Shown: positions 23,319-61,197 of the stretch, in pieces
Numbering within the stretch: the first letter of the stretch is position 1
How the letters are laid out: each line of letters opens with the position of its first letter
DNA from: Gemmatimonadota bacterium
GTDB taxonomy: Bacteria > Gemmatimonadota > Gemmatimonadetes > Longimicrobiales > Longimicrobiaceae
Direction: 5' to 3'
Assembly (NCBI GenBank): GCA_028287185.1
Contig: JAQBQD010000002.1
Span: forward strand, 1 to 64,000
Length of the DNA: 64,000 nt
Program-made: the position numbers and the translations under genes
Notes under the pieces: model-generated
What the model saw: only the letters and a program-made list of their open reading frames with translations
Database searches by the model: none
What the model was told of the DNA's origin: nothing

Positions 23319-23391
23319 GCGGGAGTAGCTCAGTTGGTAGAGCATTAGCCTTCCAAGCTAAGGGTCGCGAGTTCGAGTCTCGTCTCCCGCT
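23319..23391 (+). tRNA. tRNA-Gly (anticodon TCC), prophage integration site
   Basis: Acceptor GCGGGAG/CTCCCGC, D arm GCTCAGTTGGTAGAGC, anticodon TCC within TTAGCCTTCCAAGCTAA, and T arm GCGAGTTCGAGTCTCGT. From position 23346 its 3' part is identical to a second copy at 58571, so the functional 3' end was supplied by the integrated element. Confidence 0.95.
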
Positions 23392-23394
23392 CTT
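23346..23394 (+). repeat. attL core (49-bp direct repeat, copy 1)
   Basis: Identical to 58571-58619. It begins TAGCCTTCCAAGC, at the anticodon arm of tRNA-Gly, and runs through the tRNA end plus TT. Confidence 0.93.
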
Positions 23395-24773: not shown

Positions 24774-25070
24774 ATGCCGACCAGCGTGAGCGCGGCCGCT
24801 CCCCGCGAAGCCGGCTGGTACCGCCAGCGCGCCCGTGGCGCGCCGGCGTGCCACTCATGCGGCGCGCAGCCGGCCGAGGGTGCCATCATCCGACGGTACT
24901 GGACGGGGTGGGCGTTCACCGCAACGGAGTGCGCCGTCTCGCACGCTCTCCCGATCCGGGGCATCCTGGCCCGCAACGCGTCCCCCGCTGGGGGTTACAC
25001 CGCGCCTGATAAAGACTTGGCCGTTGCCGTGCGGTGTCCCGCGACGACGCGGGGTGGAGTGCCCGCATGA
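24774..25070 (+). CDS. Hypothetical protein, 98 residues, with CxxC pair
   Basis: ATG with a GGGAGG site. The N-terminal half has APACHSCGAQPAEGAIIRRYW, a possible zinc knuckle; the C-terminal half is Ala/Arg-rich and low in information. Its stop overlaps the start of the next gene by ATGA, which supports it being real. Function unknown. Confidence 0.55.
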   Translation: MPTSVSAAAPREAGWYRQRARGAPACHSCGAQPAEGAIIRRYWTGWAFTATECAVSHALPIRGILARNASPAGGYTAPDKDLAVAVRCPATTRGGVPA

Positions 25071-26329
25071 GCTTCGTGCGAGACACGGCGTCTAAAGTAT
25101 TGCGCGCGGGTACGCCTTCCCGCATGATTGAGGGTGCCGCCGCGAAGGCGACACCCCGCCGACGCATCTCCACAGGCCCGCGACCGCCGATCCTCCCCGC
25201 CCCCGCTCCCCAGCTTTTCGCCGCACCGGGTCCGCGGCGCATCCCAAGCTTCGCCCTGCTATGCACAGGTGAAGGGCCGCGCCTTGTTCTGGAGGAAGCG
25301 CCGGCCGCTGTCGCGCTCGCGTGCTGGCAGCTCGCACAGGACGCGGCCACGTACGCAACAGCGGACCCGGACGCTCGGCCCGTGCTCTTCGCCTCGCCTC
25401 CGTTGTGGCCGCTCGATGCGCCCGACTGGACGGCGCCGGCACACGCGATCGCGGCCGGGATCGCGACCCAGGACGGCGCGGCCGTGGCCGCCGCCGCTGG
25501 CCTGCTGAGTGAACGCGCCGAAGCGCACGGGCTTTTCGCGACGGCGGTTGTGATGGCTGAGGTTGCGGCGCTCCTGACTCCAGAGGATGCCGTGCGCGCC
25601 CTTCGAGTGGCGACTCTCGCTCGCGATCGCGGGCACCACGTGGCCGCGGAGTGGTGGGGGCTACGCGCGGCCGCCCGAGCCCGCCGGTGCGGCGACTGGC
25701 TCACGACGGTTCATGGGTATGCCAGGGCGGCCGACGCGATGCAGGCCCGCGGGGCGTACACTACGGCGGCGCGAGTTCGGCGGCGGGAGTTCGCTGCGGC
25801 GCGCCGGACAGGCTCACCCACGGTTCTCGCTCGCGCGGCGCACTCCCGGTTCGTCGCAGCCGTCTTTGTTCGCGACTGGACGGCGGCTGATCGGTGGGCC
25901 GGCCTGGCGCTCCGCTTGTACTCAGCCGGCGATGCGAGGCTTCCGGCGCTCGCGCACGACGTGGCGTGGCTCGCGATCCAGCGGGGCCGCTTCGCATCCG
26001 CGCTGCCAGTTCTGCGGAGCCTACTCGCAGTGTCTTTTGAACCAGCGGACCGGCTCCGCCTGGCGGTGAACGTTGCGCGGGCGGCGGCTCCGTTGAGACT
26101 GCGTGCGGAATACGAGCGAGCTGTGCGGGAAGCATTTGCTGCGCTTGATTCCTTGGCTTACGGCGGTGAGGCCGCGTCCGCGCTTGCGGCTTTGGCTGAG
26201 GCGGCCTGCCTGGAGGGGGAGACTTCGAGCGCCCGTCTTTGGGCTGGTCAAGCACTCACACTCGCAACCGCCCGCGGCGACGCCGAGTCGAAAGCGACAG
26301 CGCGGGCGGTTCTAGGGCGCCTCGACTAG
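25067..26329 (+). CDS. Helical-repeat (TPR-like) regulator-type protein, 420 residues
   Basis: From about residue 100 it is a chain of Ala-rich antiparallel helices resembling degenerate tetratricopeptide repeats, for example EAHGLFATAVVMAEVAALLTPEDA, HHVAAEWWGLRAAARARRCGDW and QRGRFASALPVLRSLLAV. Such solenoids form the ligand-sensing part of many HTH-TPR regulators, but no DNA-binding domain is present here. The separate HTH gene at 23936 may supply it. The ATG at 25067 overlaps the previous stop and follows GGGGTGGAG. Its stop overlaps the stop of the opposing lipoprotein gene. Confidence 0.65.
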   Translation: MSFVRDTASKVLRAGTPSRMIEGAAAKATPRRRISTGPRPPILPAPAPQLFAAPGPRRIPSFALLCTGEGPRLVLEEAPAAVALACWQLAQDAATYATADPDARPVLFASPPLWPLDAPDWTAPAHAIAAGIATQDGAAVAAAAGLLSERAEAHGLFATAVVMAEVAALLTPEDAVRALRVATLARDRGHHVAAEWWGLRAAARARRCGDWLTTVHGYARAADAMQARGAYTTAARVRRREFAAARRTGSPTVLARAAHSRFVAAVFVRDWTAADRWAGLALRLYSAGDARLPALAHDVAWLAIQRGRFASALPVLRSLLAVSFEPADRLRLAVNVARAAAPLRLRAEYERAVREAFAALDSLAYGGEAASALAALAEAACLEGETSSARLWAGQALTLATARGDAESKATARAVLGRLD

Positions 26330-26508
26330 TTGCCGCCGCCCATTCCGCCGATCCCGTCCCCGGGAGGCGTCGGCGGGGAGTGGGGCACGCTGTCGGCCAC
26401 GGTGCGTGTGGGGGCGGAGCGGGCCGGAGTGGTGGGGTTGTCGGAACAGGCGGCGAGGACGGCCGACAGCAGAACGGCGGACAGCACAACGCGGGCGATG
26501 GGGCGCAT
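26326..26508 (-). CDS. Small lipoprotein, 60 residues
   Basis: The signal peptide MRPIARVVLSAVLLSAVLAAC has a clear lipobox (VLAAC), so the mature protein is a lipid-anchored peptide beginning CSDNPTTPARS. It is Pro/Thr-rich and ends GGMGGGN. GGAGGC lies upstream of the ATG. It faces the TPR-like gene, the two stop codons overlapping at 26326-26329. A short surface lipoprotein in a prophage could act in superinfection exclusion, but that is speculation. Confidence 0.7.
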   Translation of the reverse strand: MRPIARVVLSAVLLSAVLAACSDNPTTPARSAPTRTVADSVPHSPPTPPGDGIGGMGGGN

Positions 26509-26769: not shown

Positions 26770-28173
26770 ATGGGTAAAGAGACGGCAGTTGTCAACAATC
26801 GCGCGGCGGTAGCTGGTGGAAAGGAGCGGGACGCGAGTCCGCCCGACCCGCGGGCCATGCGCGCGGAGTGGGTCCGGCGCACGCAGAGCCGCGCGCTGGA
26901 GGCGGCGCAGGCAGTCGTGAACGCGTTCGCCCCCGTGCTGGATGGCTCGATGGAGGGCCAGCACGCAGACGGCAGCGAGGTGGGGGTCGTGCTCAACTCC
27001 CTGAGCGACACCCGAGACGCCCTGCTGCGGGCCGTCCACGGCGAGCGGGACGCGGCGGACACGCCCTCCGGTTCACCGGCATCCGAGCGCGGCAGCGACG
27101 CGCGCCATGCGGTGCGCGCCCTCGCAGGCTGGTGGGACGTGCTGCGGCGGCTGGTCAGCGCCGGCGCCGACCTCGGCGAGGTGGCGCGCCGGCATCGCGT
27201 GATGGGAGCCACCGCCGCGAACCTGGCCGATCTGCCGGGCGGGGGCGACGGCTGGGCCGAGGCGGCAGAGGCGACCTTCGACGCCTACTTCACCGCGTGC
27301 TCGGTGATGTCGCACGGCCAGGGCGTTGCGCCCGCGGCCGTGGACCCGCTCCAGCAGGTGGACGCCATCGTCATGCGCGCGATCGCCGCGACTCAGGCGG
27401 TGGTCGAGGCCGGCGAGGCGAAGGTGGCGGCGGCGTTCTGGCCGCTCACCTCGCTCGGGAACGGCGACCTGGTGGACGGCACCGGCGGCCCGCTGGGCGA
27501 GCTCGCCCAGATCGTCCTCGGGTCGCTCAACGAAAACCTCGAGGATTTCATCCTGGCCCATGTGCCCGAGACGGACGCGGGTACGCGCGAGCGCTTCGAC
27601 GCGGCGGCGCGCGGCTTCAAACCGGTGCTTTCTATCTCCGTGGATGCAGAGGAGGATCTGTACATCGCGGATGCGTACTTCAAGCTCCTGGCGCACCTGC
27701 ACGAAACGGGGGCCGTGGCGTTCTCGTGGCAGGTCCAGAGCGCCCGCGTGTTCGACGTGGTGGCTCGGAACCTCGCGGAGATGGCCAGCAGCGACGGCAC
27801 GGGCGAAGGCACGTGGTTCGACGGGATCGTGCGGGACCGCCAGCGCTACCTGAGCGCGTTCGGCGGGCGGGTGCCGCCGGAGTTCCACCGGGAGATGGCG
27901 GAGGCGCTCGCCGCGGGCTTCTCCGCCCTCGCGGTGGAGGGCGCCGCCGGGGACGGGCTACGGGGGTCGATGCCCTTCGAGCGGTACGTGCGCCTCGCGA
28001 CGGAGCTTCCCGGTTTCCGCGAAGCCGTTGGCCGCGACGGACTCTCGGGCGAAACGTGCCTCTTGGTTGCGAGCGGCCTATACCCCGCGACGCTGCAGCC
28101 GCGCGCCTGCTGCCTGATCGTGGCGGAGCTGCTTGCCGCGCTCACGGCTTCGGGCGTGGAGGTGGCGTCGTGA
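26770..28173 (+). CDS. Unknown prophage cargo protein A, 467 residues
   Basis: A largely alpha-helical, acidic soluble protein with no transmembrane segment and no nucleotide-binding or nuclease motif that I can see. Recognisable local patterns are ALAGWWDVLRRLVSAGADL, NENLEDFILAHVPETDAGTR and DAEEDLYIADAYFKLLAHL. The N-terminal 30 residues are charged and probably flexible. It is the first gene of a tightly coupled set of three: its stop overlaps the GTG start of protein B (GTGA). A GGAGGTG sequence precedes the start, but at unusually long spacing. Confidence 0.65.
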   Translation: MGKETAVVNNRAAVAGGKERDASPPDPRAMRAEWVRRTQSRALEAAQAVVNAFAPVLDGSMEGQHADGSEVGVVLNSLSDTRDALLRAVHGERDAADTPSGSPASERGSDARHAVRALAGWWDVLRRLVSAGADLGEVARRHRVMGATAANLADLPGGGDGWAEAAEATFDAYFTACSVMSHGQGVAPAAVDPLQQVDAIVMRAIAATQAVVEAGEAKVAAAFWPLTSLGNGDLVDGTGGPLGELAQIVLGSLNENLEDFILAHVPETDAGTRERFDAAARGFKPVLSISVDAEEDLYIADAYFKLLAHLHETGAVAFSWQVQSARVFDVVARNLAEMASSDGTGEGTWFDGIVRDRQRYLSAFGGRVPPEFHREMAEALAAGFSALAVEGAAGDGLRGSMPFERYVRLATELPGFREAVGRDGLSGETCLLVASGLYPATLQPRACCLIVAELLAALTASGVEVAS

Positions 28174-28673
28174 CGGCCCGGGCAGGAACGCCGGCCGCGG
28201 CGGACGCGCTTCCCCGCGCCGCGCGGGAAGCCGTCGCCGAGATGCGGGCGATGATCGAGCCGGTGTGCTTCCTCGCCCGCATCGACGGGCGCGAGGAAGG
28301 GTGTGACGTCTTCGACGGCTCAATCGCGCAGAGCGCCGCGCCGTGGTTCGCCCACCTGCAGGACGAGCTCGACCGCTTCGTGGACGCGTGCGCCGGTCGG
28401 GAGCGGGAGGAGCCGTATCCGGACGGGCCCTTCGCGGTGGACATGATCCGCACCTTCCGCAACCGCGTGGCTGGCCTGGCCGCGCTGGCCGAGGCGATCC
28501 GCGAGCCCAGCATCACGGAACACCTCTGCCACGCCCGGGAACCACAGCGCGAGGGGAGTCCGCTGGTCGAACCCTTCTCGCAGAGCGTCGCGGCGGCCGT
28601 GCGCGAGGTGTTCGAATCGTTCCCACGCTGGGCTGCCATGCTGATCGGCGTGCGCGCCGGGGGTGCGTCGTGA
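28170..28673 (+). CDS. Unknown prophage cargo protein B, 167 residues
   Basis: A helical protein with aromatic and acidic residues in helices, for example APWFAHLQDELDRFVDACAGRE and SVAAAVREVFESFPRWAAMLIGV. The GTG start overlaps the stop of protein A, and its own stop overlaps the GTG of protein C, so the three are very likely made in fixed proportion and act together. No family recognised. Confidence 0.65.
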   Translation: MTARAGTPAAADALPRAAREAVAEMRAMIEPVCFLARIDGREEGCDVFDGSIAQSAAPWFAHLQDELDRFVDACAGREREEPYPDGPFAVDMIRTFRNRVAGLAALAEAIREPSITEHLCHAREPQREGSPLVEPFSQSVAAAVREVFESFPRWAAMLIGVRAGGAS

Positions 28674-29374
28674 GCGCCGCGCGCGGGGTGCCGGTGCCAC
28701 TGGCCGACGGCCTCGATCAATACAGCCGCCTGGACGGGGTGGAAACGGATTTCATGGTGGCCCCGACGCTGGCGTGGGTGCGGGCGTGTCGGGCCGTGGA
28801 GCCGGCGAACCCCAGCCTGTACGCCTTCGAGGCCCTTCTGGGCGCGGTCGTCGCCGGATGGAACGCGCTCTACCCCCTCATCCATGCAGCGTGCCGGGAG
28901 CCGACGGACGGGGAAAGGCGGACGGCTTCGGTCGGCTCGGAATGGGCGAGCGACCCCGAGCGGTGGCTGGGGGATTTCGTCGGACAGCGCATCGTCCGCG
29001 GCTTCCACCTCGTCACGAACGCCTGCCTGGCCCAGCAGGAGTTCCCCTTCCGCCACCGGCGGCTCCATGCGCTCCGGATGAGCGCCGAAGCCGATCCGAG
29101 TACCGAGCTGGACGGCCCGCTCTGGGCACTGGCAATGGACCTATACCTGATGCGAGCCGCGACGGCGGGGTCGGAAGGGGGAATCGGGGCGGTCGCCCGG
29201 GAATGCCTGAACGACCGGCTGGACCTGCCGACGTGGCTCGAAGAGGTGTCGGACCTGGGATGGGCAACGGACTGCGCCGCACACCCGCTGTTGCACGTCG
29301 CCGTTCGTAACGACGCCGCTCAGGCTGTGCTCCAGCGGCTCGCGGACCGCATGTCGGCCGAGGGGGGCATCTGA
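28670..29374 (+). CDS. Unknown prophage cargo protein C, 234 residues
   Basis: A helical protein with FMVAPTLAWVRACRAVEPANPSLYAF, DFVGQRIVRGFHLVTNACLAQQEFPF and RHRRLHALRMSAE. Each of proteins A, B and C has similar amphipathic helix spacing, which could reflect distant relatedness, but I cannot demonstrate it. GTG start in a GTGA overlap with B. Its stop overlaps a possible CTG start of a short secreted peptide. Confidence 0.65.
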   Translation: MSAARGVPVPLADGLDQYSRLDGVETDFMVAPTLAWVRACRAVEPANPSLYAFEALLGAVVAGWNALYPLIHAACREPTDGERRTASVGSEWASDPERWLGDFVGQRIVRGFHLVTNACLAQQEFPFRHRRLHALRMSAEADPSTELDGPLWALAMDLYLMRAATAGSEGGIGAVARECLNDRLDLPTWLEEVSDLGWATDCAAHPLLHVAVRNDAAQAVLQRLADRMSAEGGI

Positions 29375-29598
29375 GGCGGCGGACGCTGGTGGCGCTGGCC
29401 GCGCTGGTGGTGGCGGGCGCCGTCGCCGCGGCGAAAACCCCGCCCCCCAGGGAGGAGATTCCGGCCGGAGCGCCCACGCCGGAGCGAATCTCCGCCCCCA
29501 GGGGAGGAGATTCCGGAAACCCCGCCCCCCAGGGAGGAGTTTCGCCGCCCGGCCTGGCCGGGTGCTCGGGACCGCGGGCGTGTATGTCCGCGGTGTGA
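29371..29598 (+). CDS. Possible secreted Pro/Gly-rich peptide with CTG start
   Basis: If translation starts at the CTG overlapping the stop of protein C (CTGA), the product opens with Arg-rich residues then LVALAALVVAGAVAAA, a good Sec signal peptide. A Pro/Arg/Glu-rich mature part of about 55 residues follows. Three imperfect 25-bp direct repeats (core CCCCCCAGGGAGGAG) at about 29438, 29491 and 29520 encode the PPREEIP / APRGGDSG / APQGGVSP segments. A GTG at 29389 would remove most of the signal's positive end. A terminator follows immediately. The gene is uncertain. Confidence 0.4.
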   Translation: MRRRTLVALAALVVAGAVAAAKTPPPREEIPAGAPTPERISAPRGGDSGNPAPQGGVSPPGLAGCSGPRACMSAV

Positions 29599-29637: not shown

Positions 29638-29640
29638 CTC

Positions 29641-29654
29641 TTTCCACGTGGAAA
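29641..29654. promoter_or_regulatory. Palindromic site TTTCCACGTGGAAA (copy 2)
   Basis: Identical to copy 1, placed right after the terminator T tract. Confidence 0.55.
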
Positions 29655-29774
29655 CCCGGTGTGCGCAGATCAACCCCCTTGACCGGCCGAGGGGTCCGGC
29701 ACCACGTTGGAAGGCCCCGGACGGCTCCGACTGCCGCCCGCGGGGAGAATCGCCTACCGACCAAGGAGAATCGA

Positions 29775-29873
29775 ATGACCGACAACGGCGGAACGCTCGG
29801 AGGCCCCGGGATCATCGGCAGCTCAGGCGGGAGGGCGACGGCCCGGTCCGGCGGAATGATGGGGGGAACGTGA
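29775..29873 (+). CDS. Glycine-rich mini-ORF 1, 32 residues
   Basis: MTDNGGTLGGPGIIGSSGG at the start, with Arg/Ser and Met-Met-Gly-Gly-Thr at the end. The only member of the array with an ATG and a standalone AGGAGA ribosome site, so ribosomes probably load here. Its stop TGA overlaps the GTG of mini-ORF 2. Confidence 0.6.
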   Translation: MTDNGGTLGGPGIIGSSGGRATARSGGMMGGT

Positions 29874-29962
29874 ACGGCGGGACGATCGGCTCAAGCGGCC
29901 GGAAAGGCGGATGGCTGGGCAGCGGGGGCTCCGTCGTGGATCCGGCCGGAGTGGGCTCGTGA
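29870..29962 (+). CDS. Glycine-rich mini-ORF 2, 30 residues
   Basis: Opens MNGGTIGSSGRKGGWLGSGG, then SVVDPAGVGS. The GTGA overlap at each end and GGGGGGA just upstream support reinitiation. Shares the shape Asn-Gly-Gly ... Gly-Gly-Trp ... Val-Val-(Asn/Asp)-Pro with ORFs 4 and 6. Confidence 0.6.
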   Translation: MNGGTIGSSGRKGGWLGSGGSVVDPAGVGS

Positions 29963-30066
29963 ACGGTGGCGTCGGTGGCGGCGTGGGCCGCACGGCTCGC
30001 TCGTGCGTCGGCACCACGCTGGGGGGCGGCAGCGCCGTCGTCAACCCGACCGGAAGCGGCTCGTGA
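29959..30066 (+). CDS. Glycine-rich mini-ORF 3, 35 residues
   Basis: Opens MNGGVGGGVGRTARSCVG and ends TTLGGGSAVVNPTGSGS. The only member with a cysteine. GTGA overlaps on both sides. Confidence 0.6.
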   Translation: MNGGVGGGVGRTARSCVGTTLGGGSAVVNPTGSGS

Positions 30067-30230
30067 ACGGCGGGACGTTGGGCTCGGGTGGCCGCATCGG
30101 TGGCTGGGTGGGCGGCGGGAGCCGCGGCGTCGTGAACCCGATGGGGAGCGGCAACAGGAGCGGCCGCACCATCACCACGACCGGCTCGGGCAACCGCAGC
30201 GGCGGGTGGGTGGGCGGGAGCGGATCGTGA
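30063..30230 (+). CDS. Glycine-rich mini-ORF 4, 55 residues
   Basis: Opens MNGGTLGSGGRIGGWVGGGS, then RGVVNPMGSGNRSG, a Thr-rich patch and a second GSGNRSGGWVGG unit, as if two repeats were fused. GTGA overlaps on both sides. Confidence 0.6.
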   Translation: MNGGTLGSGGRIGGWVGGGSRGVVNPMGSGNRSGRTITTTGSGNRSGGWVGGSGS

Positions 30231-30427
30231 ACGGCGGCGCGGTCGGCTCCGGCAACCGATCCGGCGGCACCCTCGGAGGCGGCTCGTTGCCCGTGCGAAG
30301 CAGTGGCGGCACCATCGGCGGCAGTTCGGCGCCGCAGCGCAACGGCGGCGTGGGCTCAGGCGCACGCACGGACGACGGATGGTTGGGTGGCGGCGGGGGC
30401 ACTCCTGCCGGGCGTGGTAGCTCGTGA
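30227..30427 (+). CDS. Glycine-rich mini-ORF 5, 66 residues
   Basis: The longest closed member. It opens MNGGAVGSGNRSGGTLGGGS and contains SSGGTIGGSSAPQRNGG and DDGWLGGGGG. GTGA overlaps on both sides. Confidence 0.6.
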   Translation: MNGGAVGSGNRSGGTLGGGSLPVRSSGGTIGGSSAPQRNGGVGSGARTDDGWLGGGGGTPAGRGSS

Positions 30428-30603
30428 ACGGCGGGACGATGGGCTCCGGCACCCGCACGTGGCGAGGCTGGTTGGGTGGTGGGAGCCGGAGCGTCGTCAA
30501 CCCCGTGGGAAGCGGGAATCGTGCGGACGGCGGGTGGGTGGGCGGCGGCGGTAGCGCAGCCGGACGGGCGCCGCACACTCACGCACTCCCCATAGAGGCC
30601 CCC
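30424..30603 (+). CDS. Glycine-rich mini-ORF 6, open into the next gene
   Basis: Opens MNGGTMGSGTRTWRGWLGGG, then SRSVVNPVGSGNRADGGWVGG. Unlike the others it has no stop: the frame continues through a linker into the ATG of the secreted protein at 30604. Either it is an N-terminal extension of that protein, or its stop has been lost. Confidence 0.5.
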
Positions 30604-31221
30604 ATGATTTTACGGACCTTCATTGCATGCGTGCTCGTGGCCGGACTCGCGTCTCGCGGAGAAGCGCAGATAGCCACGGCTGATTACATTCCCGACTCTT
30701 CGCTATTGCACACAGGCTCCCCCATCGCAGGGTTCGCCTCCACTCCCTGGGGCGCGAGCCGGTCCGCTGTGATTCGTCGCCTCGGGGCGCCGCGGAGTGT
30801 CCAACGCCTCGCGGGAACGGATGCGATCGTCTATCACCAGACGGTCCTGCATTACCGCGCAACGGCAGTGTACCTGTTCCGCGGCGACGACGGATTGGTG
30901 GCGGGGATGTACAACTTCGATCTTCCGATGAACGCCGACTGCGAGGCGGTCTACGACGCGATCGCGTCGGCGATCGCGTCCCGGTACCCGAACGACAGCC
31001 CCCTGGAAGAAAAAACGAACGCCTCCTCCCTCTCGTTCTGTGATGGCGTTCTGATCGGGAAGGCGGCGGCTCAAACGGCTTGGTTGGACGCGCAAGGGAA
31101 CAGTGCGAGTGTCTCGATCGATTCGGAGCATCCCCGGCGAGTCTTCGTGCTCTATTCGACGCGGCTCGCGTTTGACGGGGTCGAAGCCGCGAACGCCGCC
31201 GAAGTGCGTCGACAGTTCTAG
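30604..31221 (+). CDS. Exported protein of unknown function, 205 residues
   Basis: The Sec signal peptide MILRTFIACVLVAGLASRGEA is cleaved before QIATADY. The mature domain has STPWGASRSAVIRRLGAPRS, YHQTVLHYRATAVYLFRGDDGLVAGMYNF and a Cys pair (ADCEAVYD, LSFCDG). This resembles small bacterial envelope domains that begin with a P-W-G-x-S segment. The internal ATG at 30604, preceded by AGAGG, is chosen because the signal peptide begins there; the in-frame Gly-rich leader from 30424 would mask the signal. Confidence 0.7.
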   Translation: MILRTFIACVLVAGLASRGEAQIATADYIPDSSLLHTGSPIAGFASTPWGASRSAVIRRLGAPRSVQRLAGTDAIVYHQTVLHYRATAVYLFRGDDGLVAGMYNFDLPMNADCEAVYDAIASAIASRYPNDSPLEEKTNASSLSFCDGVLIGKAAAQTAWLDAQGNSASVSIDSEHPRRVFVLYSTRLAFDGVEAANAAEVRRQF

Positions 31222-31602: not shown

Positions 31603-31635
31603 GGGGCCGTGCACCGAATCGCGGTGCACGGCCCC
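31603..31635 (+). terminator. Terminator at the end of the cargo region
   Basis: 14-bp perfect stem GGGGCCGTGCACCG / CGGTGCACGGCCCC with a 5-nt loop, followed by TGGTTCTTT and then the palindrome at 31642. It separates the rightward cargo from the leftward late operon. Confidence 0.8.
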
Positions 31636-31641
31636 TGGTTC

Positions 31642-31655
31642 TTTCCACGCGGAAA
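31642..31655. promoter_or_regulatory. Palindromic site TTTCCACGCGGAAA (copy 3)
   Basis: Same arrangement as copy 2: terminator stem, CTGG, pyrimidines, then the site. One central base differs (C for T). Confidence 0.55.
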
Positions 31656-31694
31656 CCTCTGAGTGGCGCCCGTGCGGCCGAGTTGCGCGCGCCC

Positions 31695-32300
31695 TCAATC
31701 CTGGTCGCGAATTAGGCCCACCCCTTCCCGCGCGGCCGCTCCGCCCGCCTGCGGCACCCGCCCCTCCCGCAGCGCGTCCACCGCCGTTTCCACCACCCGC
31801 GGCACCCGCACCACGAGCCGCAGGTTGCGGATGATGGAGGTCGCCTCCGCGCCGATCAGGGCCAGCAGCATCACGCGCGTCATGGGCTGCCAGGCCAGCA
31901 GCGCGGCCGCGGTGTCCGACAGGCACGCCCGTACGGTCCAGTCGATCATCACCCCCAGAGGCACCATGTGCAGCTCCAGCGCCTTCCGCGCGATCCCGTG
32001 CTTGTACGCAGTCCACGCGAACACCTCGGTCGGGCTCAGGTAGGCGCGGAGCCCGCCGGAGGTGCAGTCCAGCAGGATGCAGCCCACGGCGGCGAGCACC
32101 AGGATGAGGTTGAGCTGTCCCAGCAGCAGCCCCGCGCAGGCGACGGTGCCGGCGCAGATCACCCCGGCCGGCTCCACGGACAGCACGATGGCCAGCGGCC
32201 CACGAAGCGCAGGGGTCAGGCGGTGCGGCGTCATACGGCGCTCGGGGTAGGGGCGGTGCACGCGGACCTTCGCCACGCGCGAGGGAACGGCGGCCGCCAT
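31695..32300 (-). CDS. Phage holin family protein
   Basis: 201 residues with about three to four hydrophobic helices: LAIVLSVEPAGVICAGTVAC, LLGQLNLILVLAAVGCILLD and the family-like pair LSPTEVFAWTAYKHGIARKALEL ... LLALIGAEATSIIRNL. This matches the phage holin 4 (TcdE/LL-H-like) layout. It would make the membrane lesion that releases lysis enzymes or triggers lysis. It is the last gene of the leftward late operon and overlaps the preceding stop by ATGA. No endolysin gene was identified next to it. Confidence 0.7.
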   Translation of the reverse strand: MAAAVPSRVAKVRVHRPYPERRMTPHRLTPALRGPLAIVLSVEPAGVICAGTVACAGLLLGQLNLILVLAAVGCILLDCTSGGLRAYLSPTEVFAWTAYKHGIARKALELHMVPLGVMIDWTVRACLSDTAAALLAWQPMTRVMLLALIGAEATSIIRNLRLVVRVPRVVETAVDALREGRVPQAGGAAAREGVGLIRDQD

Positions 32301-48656: not shown

Positions 48657-48920
48657 CTATGCGGAGCCGTCGCCCCCGTCAATACCGGCGGCTGGTGCCC
48701 GCTCCATGAACGCGTCGTGCCATGCGCTCGCGTAGAGGGTGTAGACTCGATTGCACAGGCGCCCGCCCGCCCGCGTCCGCTTGCACTGGTAGGTCTGCAC
48801 CGGCTCCTGTCGGGGCAGGTGGTCGTACCCGTGCACGTGGGCGGCGTAGACCCGCAACGCCGGGGCCGAGGCGCACGCCGGGCACTGGGCCGCGAGGATG
48901 AACAGCGGTCCGATGCTCAA
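48657..48920 (-). CDS. Zinc-ribbon protein, 87 residues
   Basis: A TTG start overlapping the terminase stop (TTGA) gives MSIGPLFILAAQCPACASAP. The cysteines in CPAC and YQCKRTRAGGRLCNRVY suggest a zinc ribbon. The C-terminus is acidic. A terminator follows, supporting the gene end. Could be a regulator of late expression, but no homology is asserted. Confidence 0.6.
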   Translation of the reverse strand: MSIGPLFILAAQCPACASAPALRVYAAHVHGYDHLPRQEPVQTYQCKRTRAGGRLCNRVYTLYASAWHDAFMERAPAAGIDGGDGSA

Positions 48921-50863
48921 CCGTCCCCGCTCACGAACGACGAACGCACCCGCGTCCGCTTCGCCGCCTTCCGCGCCGGCGGCTTCGCGCCCTCGGCAGC
49001 CGGCTTCCACTCGCTGTGTCGCCGCGCCATCTCCGGCAGGCGCCGCACGAACGTCGGGTCCCGCATCTCCAGCGCGCGCAGCGCGGCGAGCGCGTAGCCG
49101 GCGCAGTCCAGCGCCTCGTTCCGCTGGCCCTGAGACTTGAGAACCCAGGTCCGGTGCGGCCGTCCGTTCACGTAGCGCGTCGCCCGCTTCTCGGCTGTCA
49201 GTTGCTCGAACCATGCGGAGTCTGCCCATTCGGGGAAGTGCACGAAATTGCGCACGGGCTCGCCCGGCGCGGCCTCGGGTGGACGAACGGTCCGGAGCCG
49301 TGCATCCAGGTTGTCTTTCGCACCGTCGATCCCCACGACGTAGGTGGGGCGCTTCCGGCTGCGGAACCGCGCTTTCCGGTCCTTCTCCGGCGCCTTGAGC
49401 AGCTCGCGCCCGGGGCCACTCCGCCCCATCACCGGGATGCAGTTCGCCAGGCGTTCGCAGAAGCGGTGCACCATCTCGGTGTTGTGGCCGGCGTCGATGG
49501 CCGCGAAGGCGATCGGGATCTGCGCCCCGCTTTCGTGCGTGAAGCGGCGGTTGCGCAGATAGTCGAGCACGCGGCCCCACACCTCGGGCTGCGCCGGCTC
49601 GCCGTCGAACACCTCCACGGCGATCACCCACGACTCCCCGCCGCCGCCGTAGCCCCACGTGTGCAGCTCCACGCGGTCGCCCTGGACGTCGCCGCCCGTG
49701 ACCAGGGCGCCCACCCCGTGCGGCACCTCGGCCGCGTACCGCTCCGCGCGGCCGGCAAGGAAGTCCCCGTCCAGGCTCTCGTCCGGCTCCTTGTACGGGA
49801 GCGCCAGGGTTCCCGTCACGAACGCCTTCATCCCCCCCGGCTCGCGCGCTGCACGGATGAAGCGGCGTGCGACCATGTCCCAGCTCAGGAAGGGCGAGTA
49901 GAGCGACGCCAGGTGGAAGCCCGCCACGTCGCGGTCCGGGAAGCGAGGCACCCACTCGCCCGAGGCGAGCATGGCGGGCTTGTGGCGCTCACTGATGTAC
50001 TGGTCGCACTGCCGGCAAACGTAGTGCACCGAACCGGGGATCAGGTCGCCGGAATCGCTGGTCTGCCACACGAAGCGGAATGCGCCCGTCTGGTCCGCGT
50101 CGTCTTCGCCGTCACGCCAGCGAAGCACCTGCATCACGCCGCAGTGCGGGCAAGGGACGTGATACTCCTCGAACGTGCTGGCCAGCAGCTCCTTCCAAAT
50201 CCGCGAGGCGCCCCACACCGTCGGCGTGCTGACGATCAGGCCCTTCGCTTCATCGCCGAACGTCGTCAGCCGCAGCCTCAGCAGCTCCAGCGGATCGCCC
50301 TGCCCATCGAGGTCCACGTCCCACTCGTCCACCTCCTCGGCGATGAAGCGCTTCGCGGTGTCGGATTTCAGGTCCGATGCGGAGCCTGCCGTGCCCGCCA
50401 TCATCCACCCGCCCGCGAAGATCTTGCGGGCGAGCGAGTCCGAGCTGTCGCGGCGGCCCGTGCGGGGGAACATGGCCCGCAACACAGGCGTGTCCTGGAG
50501 GAGCGGATCCAGGCGGGTGAGGCTCCAGTTTTCGTATTTCTTCTGCGTGGGCCAGATCACCAGGACGCCCGACGGGTCCTGATGCATCGTGAATCCGAGG
50601 AAGTTCTCGCCGATGGTACTCTTCCCGATCTGCGCCCCCGTGCAGAGCACCACCTCGCGGTAGCGGCGGTCCGTCAGGCAGCACATGGGCCGGCGGAAGA
50701 ACGGCGTCAGGTCCGTTCGGTAGCGGCCCTGCACCGGCGCGTCCCGCGGCATCACCCGGAAGCTATCGGCCCAGGCGTCCACCGTGATCTGCGGCCGGGG
50801 AGCGAAGGCGCGCATCGCCATCCCCGCCACCATCCGTCGGACGCGCGCGGTGATGGAGCTCAT
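48917..50863 (-). CDS. Terminase large subunit (gpA family)
   Basis: 648 residues. The ATPase Walker A variant CTGAQIGKST is at about residues 74-83, and Walker B and catalytic Glu are in RFIAEEVDEWD. A zinc-like CPHCG ... CRQCD is in the middle. The nuclease part has VTGGDVQGDRVELHTWGYG and AIDAGHN. Lambda gpA-type terminases package cos-ended DNA. It overlaps the small subunit by ATGA. Confidence 0.93.
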   Translation of the reverse strand: MSSITARVRRMVAGMAMRAFAPRPQITVDAWADSFRVMPRDAPVQGRYRTDLTPFFRRPMCCLTDRRYREVVLCTGAQIGKSTIGENFLGFTMHQDPSGVLVIWPTQKKYENWSLTRLDPLLQDTPVLRAMFPRTGRRDSSDSLARKIFAGGWMMAGTAGSASDLKSDTAKRFIAEEVDEWDVDLDGQGDPLELLRLRLTTFGDEAKGLIVSTPTVWGASRIWKELLASTFEEYHVPCPHCGVMQVLRWRDGEDDADQTGAFRFVWQTSDSGDLIPGSVHYVCRQCDQYISERHKPAMLASGEWVPRFPDRDVAGFHLASLYSPFLSWDMVARRFIRAAREPGGMKAFVTGTLALPYKEPDESLDGDFLAGRAERYAAEVPHGVGALVTGGDVQGDRVELHTWGYGGGGESWVIAVEVFDGEPAQPEVWGRVLDYLRNRRFTHESGAQIPIAFAAIDAGHNTEMVHRFCERLANCIPVMGRSGPGRELLKAPEKDRKARFRSRKRPTYVVGIDGAKDNLDARLRTVRPPEAAPGEPVRNFVHFPEWADSAWFEQLTAEKRATRYVNGRPHRTWVLKSQGQRNEALDCAGYALAALRALEMRDPTFVRRLPEMARRHSEWKPAAEGAKPPARKAAKRTRVRSSFVSGDG

Positions 50864-56132: not shown

Positions 56133-56921
56133 ATGGGGACTGACCAGCGGGCCCGCGCGCTGCATCCCGCCGAGATGCTGGAGGGCTTCGCGGCAAGGCT
56201 GCGGCAGGAGATTCAGCGGGGCCAGGGGACGGAGAACATAAACCTCACGGACTTCGCGACCGCGGTCGCCGCCCACACGGCCGGGCGGTGGACCGGCACC
56301 AACCGCACGGTCATCAAGCGCGTTCTGGACGGCGAGCAGCGTCCTTCCGTCGAACTCGTGGTGAGCGCCGCTCAGGCACTCGGCGTGAAGGCGGAGTGGT
56401 TGCTGACGGGTCGGGGGCCTCGCACCGATGAAGACGCCGGTTACAGCGCAGCAGCGCAGGCGGAGATCGCCGCCCTGCGCAGCCTGATCCCGGTCGAGCC
56501 GGAAACCTTACGCCACCCCTTCGACCTCTTCGCGCGTTCACGAGATGAGGTTCTACGCGACGCGCTGGTGTCCGCGAACGCCGGGCATGCGGCATGGCGG
56601 AGCGCGGCCCAAGCCCTGTTCGAGCCACTGATCTTCTCGTTACGGCGGGCTGAGATGGCCGGCACGGTCACCCGAGCCGAAGCCGACGCGATCGCCGCGC
56701 ACGTCGGACGCTCGTTCGTCGACTTCATCGTCGCACCGTCTGCACTGTTCGGGGTTGCCGTCGGCGCAATGGACACGCATGCGATGATGGTTTACGCCCA
56801 CGCCGCGGTCGCCGCGCTGGGCTCCGCTGGGGTGGGTAGCATCGTCTGGAGCGAAGCGGCGGTTCGGCGAGTGCTGGCCGAGGTCCGCAAGTCGGGAGGT
56901 GAAGCCGAGGGGGGAACGTGA
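56133..56921 (+). CDS. Phage repressor-like HTH protein, 262 residues
   Basis: The N-terminal XRE-type domain has the HTH spread over LTDFATAVAAHTAGRWTGTNRTVIKRVLDGEQRPSVELVVSAAQALGVKAEWLLTGRG, including the WLLTG element common in phage CI-type repressors. The C-terminal half is helical (EPLIFSLRRAEMAGTVTRAE, MVYAHAAVAALGSAGVGS), with no visible S24 Ser-Lys protease, so induction by RecA-stimulated self-cleavage is not obvious. It is divergent from the early operon and overlaps the integrase by GTGA. Confidence 0.78.
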   Translation: MGTDQRARALHPAEMLEGFAARLRQEIQRGQGTENINLTDFATAVAAHTAGRWTGTNRTVIKRVLDGEQRPSVELVVSAAQALGVKAEWLLTGRGPRTDEDAGYSAAAQAEIAALRSLIPVEPETLRHPFDLFARSRDEVLRDALVSANAGHAAWRSAAQALFEPLIFSLRRAEMAGTVTRAEADAIAAHVGRSFVDFIVAPSALFGVAVGAMDTHAMMVYAHAAVAALGSAGVGSIVWSEAAVRRVLAEVRKSGGEAEGGT

Positions 56922-58450
56922 AGAGAGATACGGGCCAACCGAAGATCGTCTGGCGGGACCAGGGCGGGACGCCGCGGGCGTACCTCGATGCCCGGCGGTT
57001 CGGGGTGAAGGGGCGCATCCCGTTGAAGCCCGCGGGGTCCACCCGGTGCACCACCGACCCGGTCGAAGCACAGCGGCTCGCCGTGGCGAAGCTGCGCGAG
57101 CTGGAGATGGTCGCGCAGGCGCAGGCGGTCGCGGCCGAAGCCACCCGCCTGCGCCACGCACGTCTCGGGCTGGACGAAGGGGCGGACCTGGTGGAGTACG
57201 GGGATGAGCACCTACAGCGGAAGGAGCAGGCCGGGCGCTACGCCCGGGTGTGGCTGGACAACCTCGCGCGCTACCTGGACCGGGCGAACACGTACTTCAA
57301 CGCGGTGCAGGTGACACAGGCACGCACGCCGACCGAGGCGGAGCGGTGCGCCGCGCCGCGCAACCTGCTCACGATCAGTCCCGTGGACGTGCGGGCCTAC
57401 ATGCGGTGGCTGCAAGGGCAGGACAACGGGCGGGGCGGGACGCAGGGGCAGCAGAGCGTCCGGCATCACCTGTCGGCCCTGAGCGGACTGTTCGCCTCGG
57501 CGATCGGCGATGGGCTGCTGCCGATGGGCCACAACCCCGTCGCGAACATGAACGAGCGGCCGGGCGTCCCGAAGTCCACCACGAAGCTGATCGAGGCGCC
57601 GGACCTGGCGCTGCTGCTGGAGTCCGCGCGGACGCTGCAGGAGGAGGTTGACCCTGCGGACCGCATGAAGCCGCTGGCCTGCGCGCATGCGATGCTGGCC
57701 ACCTACGTCTACACCGGCGCGCGCGATGCCGAGGTGAAGGCAATGGACGTGTCCGACGTGCACTTCGCCACCGGCTACGTAGAAATCCGGGGCACGAAGA
57801 CGGCGAATGCTGATCGTGCGGTTCCGCTGCACCCGGCGCTCGGCGCGATCCTGCGGGAGCACGTCCGGCGAACCGGCCGGATCGCCGGCCCGCTGTTCGT
57901 GAACGAGCGCACCGGCGCGCGGGTGGGGAGTTGGCGGCGGACGTTGGACCGGATCGCTGTGCGCGCCGGCTTCGCGCGCGGCGAGGTGTTTCCGCGGCGC
58001 CTGCGCGTGTCGTATGCGACGCACAGAAGCACGTGCAACGGGATCTCCGCGAACGAGCTGCGCCTGGAGATGGGGCACTCGGCTTCGCTGGCGCAGCTCG
58101 AACGGGTGTACGCGAAGGCGCAGCGGCGCGGCGAGCGGATGGGGGACAGCTTCGAGTTCACCGTGGAGCGGTACGCGGACGAGCTGGCGCCGCGCATGGC
58201 CCGGCTGGGCACGTGGGGCGCCGCGCGCCGGGCGGAGACGGCAGCCGAGCGGGGAAGGGTCGTGCGGGAGTTCCTTGCGGCCGTGCAGGGCTGGAGCGGG
58301 CCGGAGGTGATGAAGGCCACCGGCATCCCCACCCCCACCGTCAACCGGCTGCGGGCAGGCGGTGCCCAGCCGGAGAACGTGAAGAGCAAGACACTGGACG
58401 CTATCCGCGGGTTCCTCGCTTCCGGCGCCGCGCGGGCGCGGGCGGGGTGA
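56918..58450 (+). CDS. int: Tyrosine recombinase (integrase) with C-terminal HTH extension
   Basis: 510 residues. It has an N-terminal SAM-like core-binding region, then the catalytic domain: Arg269 (TGARDAEV), Lys294, Arg363, His387 (EMGHSA) and nucleophile Tyr398 (RVYAK). The usual His-x-x-Arg box reads RRLR, so the His is replaced by Arg. About 60 residues after the catalytic core form an HTH-like domain (WSGPEVMKATGIPTPTVNRL). GTG start in overlap with the repressor. It would recombine the tRNA-Gly attB. Confidence 0.9.
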   Translation: MKRDTGQPKIVWRDQGGTPRAYLDARRFGVKGRIPLKPAGSTRCTTDPVEAQRLAVAKLRELEMVAQAQAVAAEATRLRHARLGLDEGADLVEYGDEHLQRKEQAGRYARVWLDNLARYLDRANTYFNAVQVTQARTPTEAERCAAPRNLLTISPVDVRAYMRWLQGQDNGRGGTQGQQSVRHHLSALSGLFASAIGDGLLPMGHNPVANMNERPGVPKSTTKLIEAPDLALLLESARTLQEEVDPADRMKPLACAHAMLATYVYTGARDAEVKAMDVSDVHFATGYVEIRGTKTANADRAVPLHPALGAILREHVRRTGRIAGPLFVNERTGARVGSWRRTLDRIAVRAGFARGEVFPRRLRVSYATHRSTCNGISANELRLEMGHSASLAQLERVYAKAQRRGERMGDSFEFTVERYADELAPRMARLGTWGAARRAETAAERGRVVREFLAAVQGWSGPEVMKATGIPTPTVNRLRAGGAQPENVKSKTLDAIRGFLASGAARARAG

Positions 58451-58570: not shown

Positions 58571-58619
58571 TAGCCTTCCAAGCTAAGGGTCGCGAGTTCG
58601 AGTCTCGTCTCCCGCTCTT
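58571..58619 (+). repeat. attR core (49-bp direct repeat, copy 2)
   Basis: Identical to attL. Only the 3' half of the tRNA is present, so it cannot make tRNA-Gly. Confidence 0.93.
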
Positions 58620-61152: not shown

Positions 61153-61197
61153 GCCTTCCAGACTTTAGGTCGCGAGTTCGAGTCTTGTCTCCCGCTC
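61153..61197 (+). repeat. Degenerate tRNA-Gly 3' end (remnant 2)
   Basis: GCCTTCCAGACTTTAGGTCG, then GCGAGTTCGAGTCTTGTCTC and CCGCTC. Keeps the anticodon start, T arm and acceptor end with a handful of changes. Confidence 0.85.

Follow-up and report, generated by a model that had tools for sequence, protein, structure and literature searches.

A tandem array of GTGA-linked, glycine-rich mini-ORFs in a Gemmatimonadota prophage and its possible motif link to the lipoprotein partners of a TPR protein family

The array and its prophage setting

The window, by which we mean the whole 64,000-nucleotide stretch analysed here (contig JAQBQD010000002.1, positions 1 to 64,000), contains a prophage of about 35 kb that is inserted in a tRNA-Gly gene (Table 1). 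Besides an integrase and a large terminase, the prophage encodes a small terminase and tail genes. A chain of short glycine-rich frames is part of the cargo arm, which extends from attL to the lysis and tail genes. The chain is enclosed by attL and attR, and hence the phage context assumed in an initial annotation of this DNA is borne out. The cargo beside the array consists of a gene for a TPR protein with a convergent lipoprotein gene, a three-gene operon and a gene for a 205-aa protein whose N-terminus is of the signal type. The cargo genes had no match to defence-system or NCBIfam families, and the three operon proteins gave no significant family hits. For the largest of them no informative relative was found and a single weak partial match was seen among 395 genomes; the 205-aa protein had no homologue in the viral contigs or phages searched.

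The array module is flanked by two copies of the palindrome CTTTCCACGNGGAAAC. The 6-Mb genome has four copies of it (23779, 29640, 31641, 52977), all inside the prophage, and it is possibly a repressor or partition site. Two of the copies come after GC-rich hairpins. Between operon and array, at 29432-29543, a 30-bp repeat (CGAAAACCCCGCCCCCCAGGGAGGAGATTC) is present three times. Outside the prophage, two incomplete copies of the tRNA-Gly end present in attL and attR (18 bp and 23 bp) are found at 61168 and 62368 and suggest a second integrated element.

Table 1. Features of the prophage, its array and neighboring cargo genes (window coordinates).
Feature	Position	Strand	Description
tRNA-Gly (tcc)	23319-23392		
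attL	23346-23394	+	direct repeat of 49 bp made up of the 3' part of tRNA-Gly (tcc); same sequence at 58571-58619
TPR protein	25034-26329	+	431 aa; prophage copy of a paralogous host-family set
Small lipoprotein	26326-26508	-	convergent with TPR gene; ends GDGIGGMGGGN
Three-gene operon	26770-29374	+	467, 167 and 234 aa; TCGTGA overlaps; proteins without family assignment
Palindrome CTTTCCACGTGGAAACC	29640-29656	+	prophage-specific, upstream of array
Mini-ORF 1	29775-29873	+	32 aa; ATG start with AAGGAG
Mini-ORF 2	29870-29962	+	30 aa; GTGA-linked
Mini-ORF 3	29959-30066	+	35 aa; GTGA-linked
Mini-ORF 4	30063-30230	+	55 aa; GTGA-linked
Mini-ORF 5	30227-30427	+	66 aa; GTGA-linked
Mini-ORF 6	30424-31221	+	265 open codons; glycine-rich part to ~30573
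Secreted-type protein	30604-31221	+	205 aa; own ATG, in frame with mini-ORF 6
Terminator and palindrome	31603-31657	+	14-bp GC-rich stem terminator, then second CTTTCCACGCGGAAACC palindrome
Probable holin	31698-32300		match below curated cut-off
Large terminase	48917-50863	-	phrog_15, E 7e-200
Integrase	56918-58450	+	phrog_1; adjoins attR
attR	58571-58619	+	49-bp repeat identical to attL

Within 29775-30603 one frame with an ATG start is followed by five frames with GTG starts, and each of these overlaps its predecessor by GTGA. The TGA stop of each of frames 1-5 overlaps with the GTG start that follows, so that all five junctions are exact 4-nt stop/start overlaps with a -1 step in frame. The starts and the lengths of the first five frames, the regular GTGA step and the common start sequence, GTGAACGG[C/T]GG in five of the six frames, are as described in the initial annotation. 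The spacings between the array units are 89, 104, 164 and 197, every one of them 2 mod 3, and the frames have no internal stops. NGGTLGSGGRIGGWVGGGS, GSGNRADGGWVGGGGS and similar stretches are examples of the array sequence. The first ATG is preceded at the usual distance by the strong ribosome site AAGGAG. A purine-rich site had been claimed before each GTG; the claim stands for the first four GTG starts (GGGGGGAAC, CCGGAGTGG, CCGGAAGC and CGGGAGC) and fails for the last, which has neither a ribosome site nor a purine-rich stretch upstream (CGTGGTAGC). Mini-ORF 6 had been given at least 60 residues. Its start at 30424 is correct and its reading frame is far longer, since it has no stop of its own near 30603 and reads through the ATG at 30604 to 31221. 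This continuity with the 205-aa protein means either that the product is a fusion or that a stop has been lost.

Coding, duplication and coupling of the frames

A GTGA overlap is in itself ordinary. In prokaryotes, no coupled arrangement is more common than overlaps of the -4 type, GTGA or ATGA (PMC10666635), and GTGA coupling is also used locally, in the three-gene operon just upstream. The array shares with such pairs the exact GTGA overlap between unidirectional genes, but differs in what is joined: a single short glycine-rich cassette, six times in tandem, in place of distinct genes. The length of the chain is by itself not significant either, because random sequences of 64 kb with matched dinucleotide composition give longest NTGA-linked chains of 4-8 frames. 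Likewise, the five GTGA junctions cannot be counted as independent of each other, since repeats carry their junctions along. What stands above chance is the repeated coding sequence together with its divergence pattern. The check for purifying selection proposed with the initial annotation was run among the copies of the array and came out in favor of coding: in aligned blocks, dN/dS is 0.36 in the annotated frames, compared to 0.86 and 2.98 in the two shifted frames, and the differences are distributed over codon positions 1, 2 and 3 as 32, 16 and 47. Thus, the coding nature of the array is well supported by the divergence among its copies, and the cassettes were duplicated and then diverged under selection on the protein sequence. 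That the frames arose by chance in repeated GC-rich non-coding DNA would agree with the chains seen in random sequence and with the copying of junctions along with the repeats; however, the codon-phase divergence of the copies, a codon use broadly like that of the trusted genes of the window and the ribosome site at the first ATG make this very unlikely.

Duplicated coding cassettes coupled by termination-reinitiation, as envisaged in the initial annotation, remain the best reading. Its part on duplication and coding is carried by the purifying selection in the annotated frames, while the coupling is suggested by the anatomy, that is, by the GTGA layout. The annotation had also considered a single polyprotein, with a -1 frameshift at every junction. 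The sequence G_GGG_GGA, located 13 nt upstream of the end of frame 1, would suit such a mechanism, but it is the only slippery heptamer just before a stop among the five junctions; the other four have none close to the stop and a start codon is retained at every junction, which renders a frameshifted polyprotein extremely unlikely.

We searched for relatives of the array at several levels. The array peptides had no relative in their own genome or in related genomes, none in 395 genomes of the phylum by profile search (weak matches were unrelated frames), and none in IMG/VR or INPHARED. A two-cassette pattern scan of GTDB returned 54 stretches, none of which is a linked glycine-rich homologue, and the corresponding parts of related prophages hold no glycine-rich chain. 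Hence, the peptide search of Gemmatimonadota genomes and prophages that had been proposed as a check recovered no other array, and the remark that no described phage system has this layout holds within IMG/VR, INPHARED, the 395 phylum genomes and the GTDB scan. The array is real as a coding array of unusual layout without known relatives. Short tandem genes with a common motif, each coupled to the next frame, would offer a compact route to many peptide variants per message.

The glycine motif and the TPR/lipoprotein pairs

The TPR gene of the prophage belongs to a family with matches in 22 of 41 genomes searched. It is present in all 20 other genomes of the host family, probably the Longimicrobiaceae, with 1-21 copies each, and, outside the family, in one of 20 other genomes of the order, where the match is weak. 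TPR_12 (Pfam) was found in 54 of 56 family members, and a Pfam search of the members gave no HTH. An AlphaFold2 model of the prophage protein, built with 56 family members, is a helical repeat predicted confidently from residue ~80 onward; its mean pLDDT is 85, and residues 1-19 and 24-73 are modelled at low confidence. A fold search with the model lists general TPR proteins, and the Rap proteins RapH, RapI and that of phi3T rank within the top 50; these matches are compatible with peptide binding and no proof of it.

At 39 of 70 TPR loci (distinct loci with enough downstream sequence) a convergent small ORF with a motif-like glycine C-terminus was found, nearly always with a lipobox, and further partners carry the motif internally. 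The C-termini include GGQYGSGG, GGVLGSGG, GGWAGSGG, GGGVKGSGN, SGGTIGSGH, GGMMGGGG and others. The partner lipoproteins end in GG-x-h-GSGG/N/S, with two variable middle residues (25034-26508; loci L123-L145, L178-L277). As a DNA pattern, the C-terminal motif is not enriched genome-wide over a reversed control; several of its hits adjoin TPR genes.

The array motif, GG-x-h-G(S/G)G, recurs as the signature at the C-termini of the small lipoproteins convergent with the TPR genes. GGxhG(S/G)(G/S) occurs ten times in the array against an expected mean of 1.6 and a maximum of 7 in 3000, counts that are not independent because the copies are duplicates. A close counterpart is L247, a TPR-partner lipoprotein of the same genome. 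Frame 6 aligns to it with a score of 82 (shuffle mean 41.8; P 0.001, above all 1000 shuffles), the other frames range from P 0.005 to no signal, and the exact 8-mer GSGNRADG is common to frame 6 and L247 (P 0.001 with shuffled sequences, 0.012 with a dipeptide model). Both have GGTIGSGNRADG repeats, and L247 has five motif copies, among them VGGTIGSGNRADGTGTVGSGT. In contrast to the short, signal-less array frames, L247 is one single frame with signal peptide and lipobox. In a search of every frame of the TPR loci with an array profile, L247 came first by whole-sequence score, and apart from L247 and L226 the partner lipoproteins did not exceed column-shuffled controls. Glycine-rich sequence matches easily, and the profile did not separate partners from other glycine-rich frames. 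Judged from these comparisons, the motif link between array and TPR/lipoprotein pairs appears moderately supported.

The likeness to L247 also allows the view that the array is a decaying relic, namely a multi-motif lipoprotein gene of this kind that lost its signal sequence and was split into short frames. This would fit with L247, where a single frame equipped with a signal peptide has the repeat layout of the array, and with the missing stop of frame 6. We nevertheless consider decay unlikely in view of the five identical GTGA junctions, the ATG with its strong ribosome site, the frames free of internal stops, the uniform 2 mod 3 spacing and the low dN/dS.

Possible role of the peptides and comparison with RRNPP systems

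The array may be a short operon in the prophage cargo arm for small, glycine-rich cytoplasmic peptides. Ribosomes would enter at the ATG at 29775 and, as the anatomy suggests, go on by termination-reinitiation at the GTGA overlaps. The resulting peptides would carry repeated GG-x-h-G(S/G)G, as found on the C-termini of the TPR-partner lipoproteins. By inspection of the translations, none of the array frames has a hydrophobic signal or a lipobox. Therefore, secreted peptide precursors, one of the products considered in the initial annotation, are unlikely, and an action inside the cell is the natural assumption. As a tentative hypothesis that we hold possible, the signal-less motif peptides might act there on the TPR/lipoprotein system by mimicking the ligand of cytosolic TPR proteins or serving as decoys for them. 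This presupposes that the TPR proteins bind GG-x-h-G(S/G)G, which we likewise put forward as a hypothesis. In favor of a TPR-directed role counts that the prophage itself holds one TPR/lipoprotein pair; against it counts the distance of about 3.4 kb between the array and the prophage TPR gene. The more specific proposal that the variant peptides imitate the C-terminal motif and so read or jam host communication from within the cell appears distinctly unlikely.

A coupled glycine-rich coding array might instead have another role, for example in self-assembly, or be cargo unrelated to the TPR proteins, with the motif match a case of convergence. The dN/dS values support coding under this explanation as well, much of the similarity is accounted for by composition alone according to the profile test, and the TPR pair is remote from the array. 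Yet, the order of residues in the motif exceeds dipeptide-preserving models, and the 8-mer and overall layout are common to L247 of the same genome. A role apart from the TPR system is in our estimate quite possible, though short of an even chance.

If the peptides do address the TPR/lipoprotein system, peptide-receptor systems of the RRNPP type are the obvious comparison. RRNPP/RRNPPA systems include phage members, Rap-Phr and AimR-AimP (PMC10075063, PMC9765709), and Firmicutes TPR receptors with several similar or multi-pheromone propeptides have been termed 'chatterers' (PMC9765709). We used the screening criteria of PMC10075063. On the receptor side these ask for a TPR protein of 250-500 aa, and the prophage protein with its 431 aa lies in this range; adjacency to a small exported protein is seen at the 39 of 70 loci, and at more if internal motifs are included. 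The TPR/lipoprotein pairs resemble RRNPP pairs in size, TPR content and adjacency, as far as sequence can tell: a TPR protein of 250-500 aa has as its immediate neighbor a small exported protein whose C-terminal motif is conserved, the motif is repeated within one product or spread over several similar genes, one member is phage-borne, and Rap proteins are among the many TPR hits of the fold search. Unlike RRNPP systems, which were described in Firmicutes, the pairs occur outside this phylum, the partner has a lipobox and no HTH was found in the TPR family by Pfam. The receptor criteria also include an N-terminal HTH or a Rap three-helix bundle, and the low-confidence residues 1-19 and 24-73 of the model lie in this part of the protein. 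On the propeptide side, array frames 1-5 (30-66 aa) fall within the size range of 10-100 aa. By inspection, however, the array frames show no export signal of the SEC or SHP type, and four genes lie between the end of the TPR gene at 26329 and the start of the array. Because export and adjacency fail, the array peptides are not filed as RRNPP propeptides.

No account of such a TPR/lipoprotein system was found in the literature searched. Should the motif link be true, a many-copy TPR/lipoprotein family answering to most published RRNPP screening criteria would exist outside Firmicutes, and a phage may interfere with a TPR/lipoprotein peptide system of its host. Such a peptide system would be so far undescribed and present in many copies in a Gram-negative family of the Gemmatimonadota type. 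L247, with its five motif copies, resembles a multi-pheromone propeptide.
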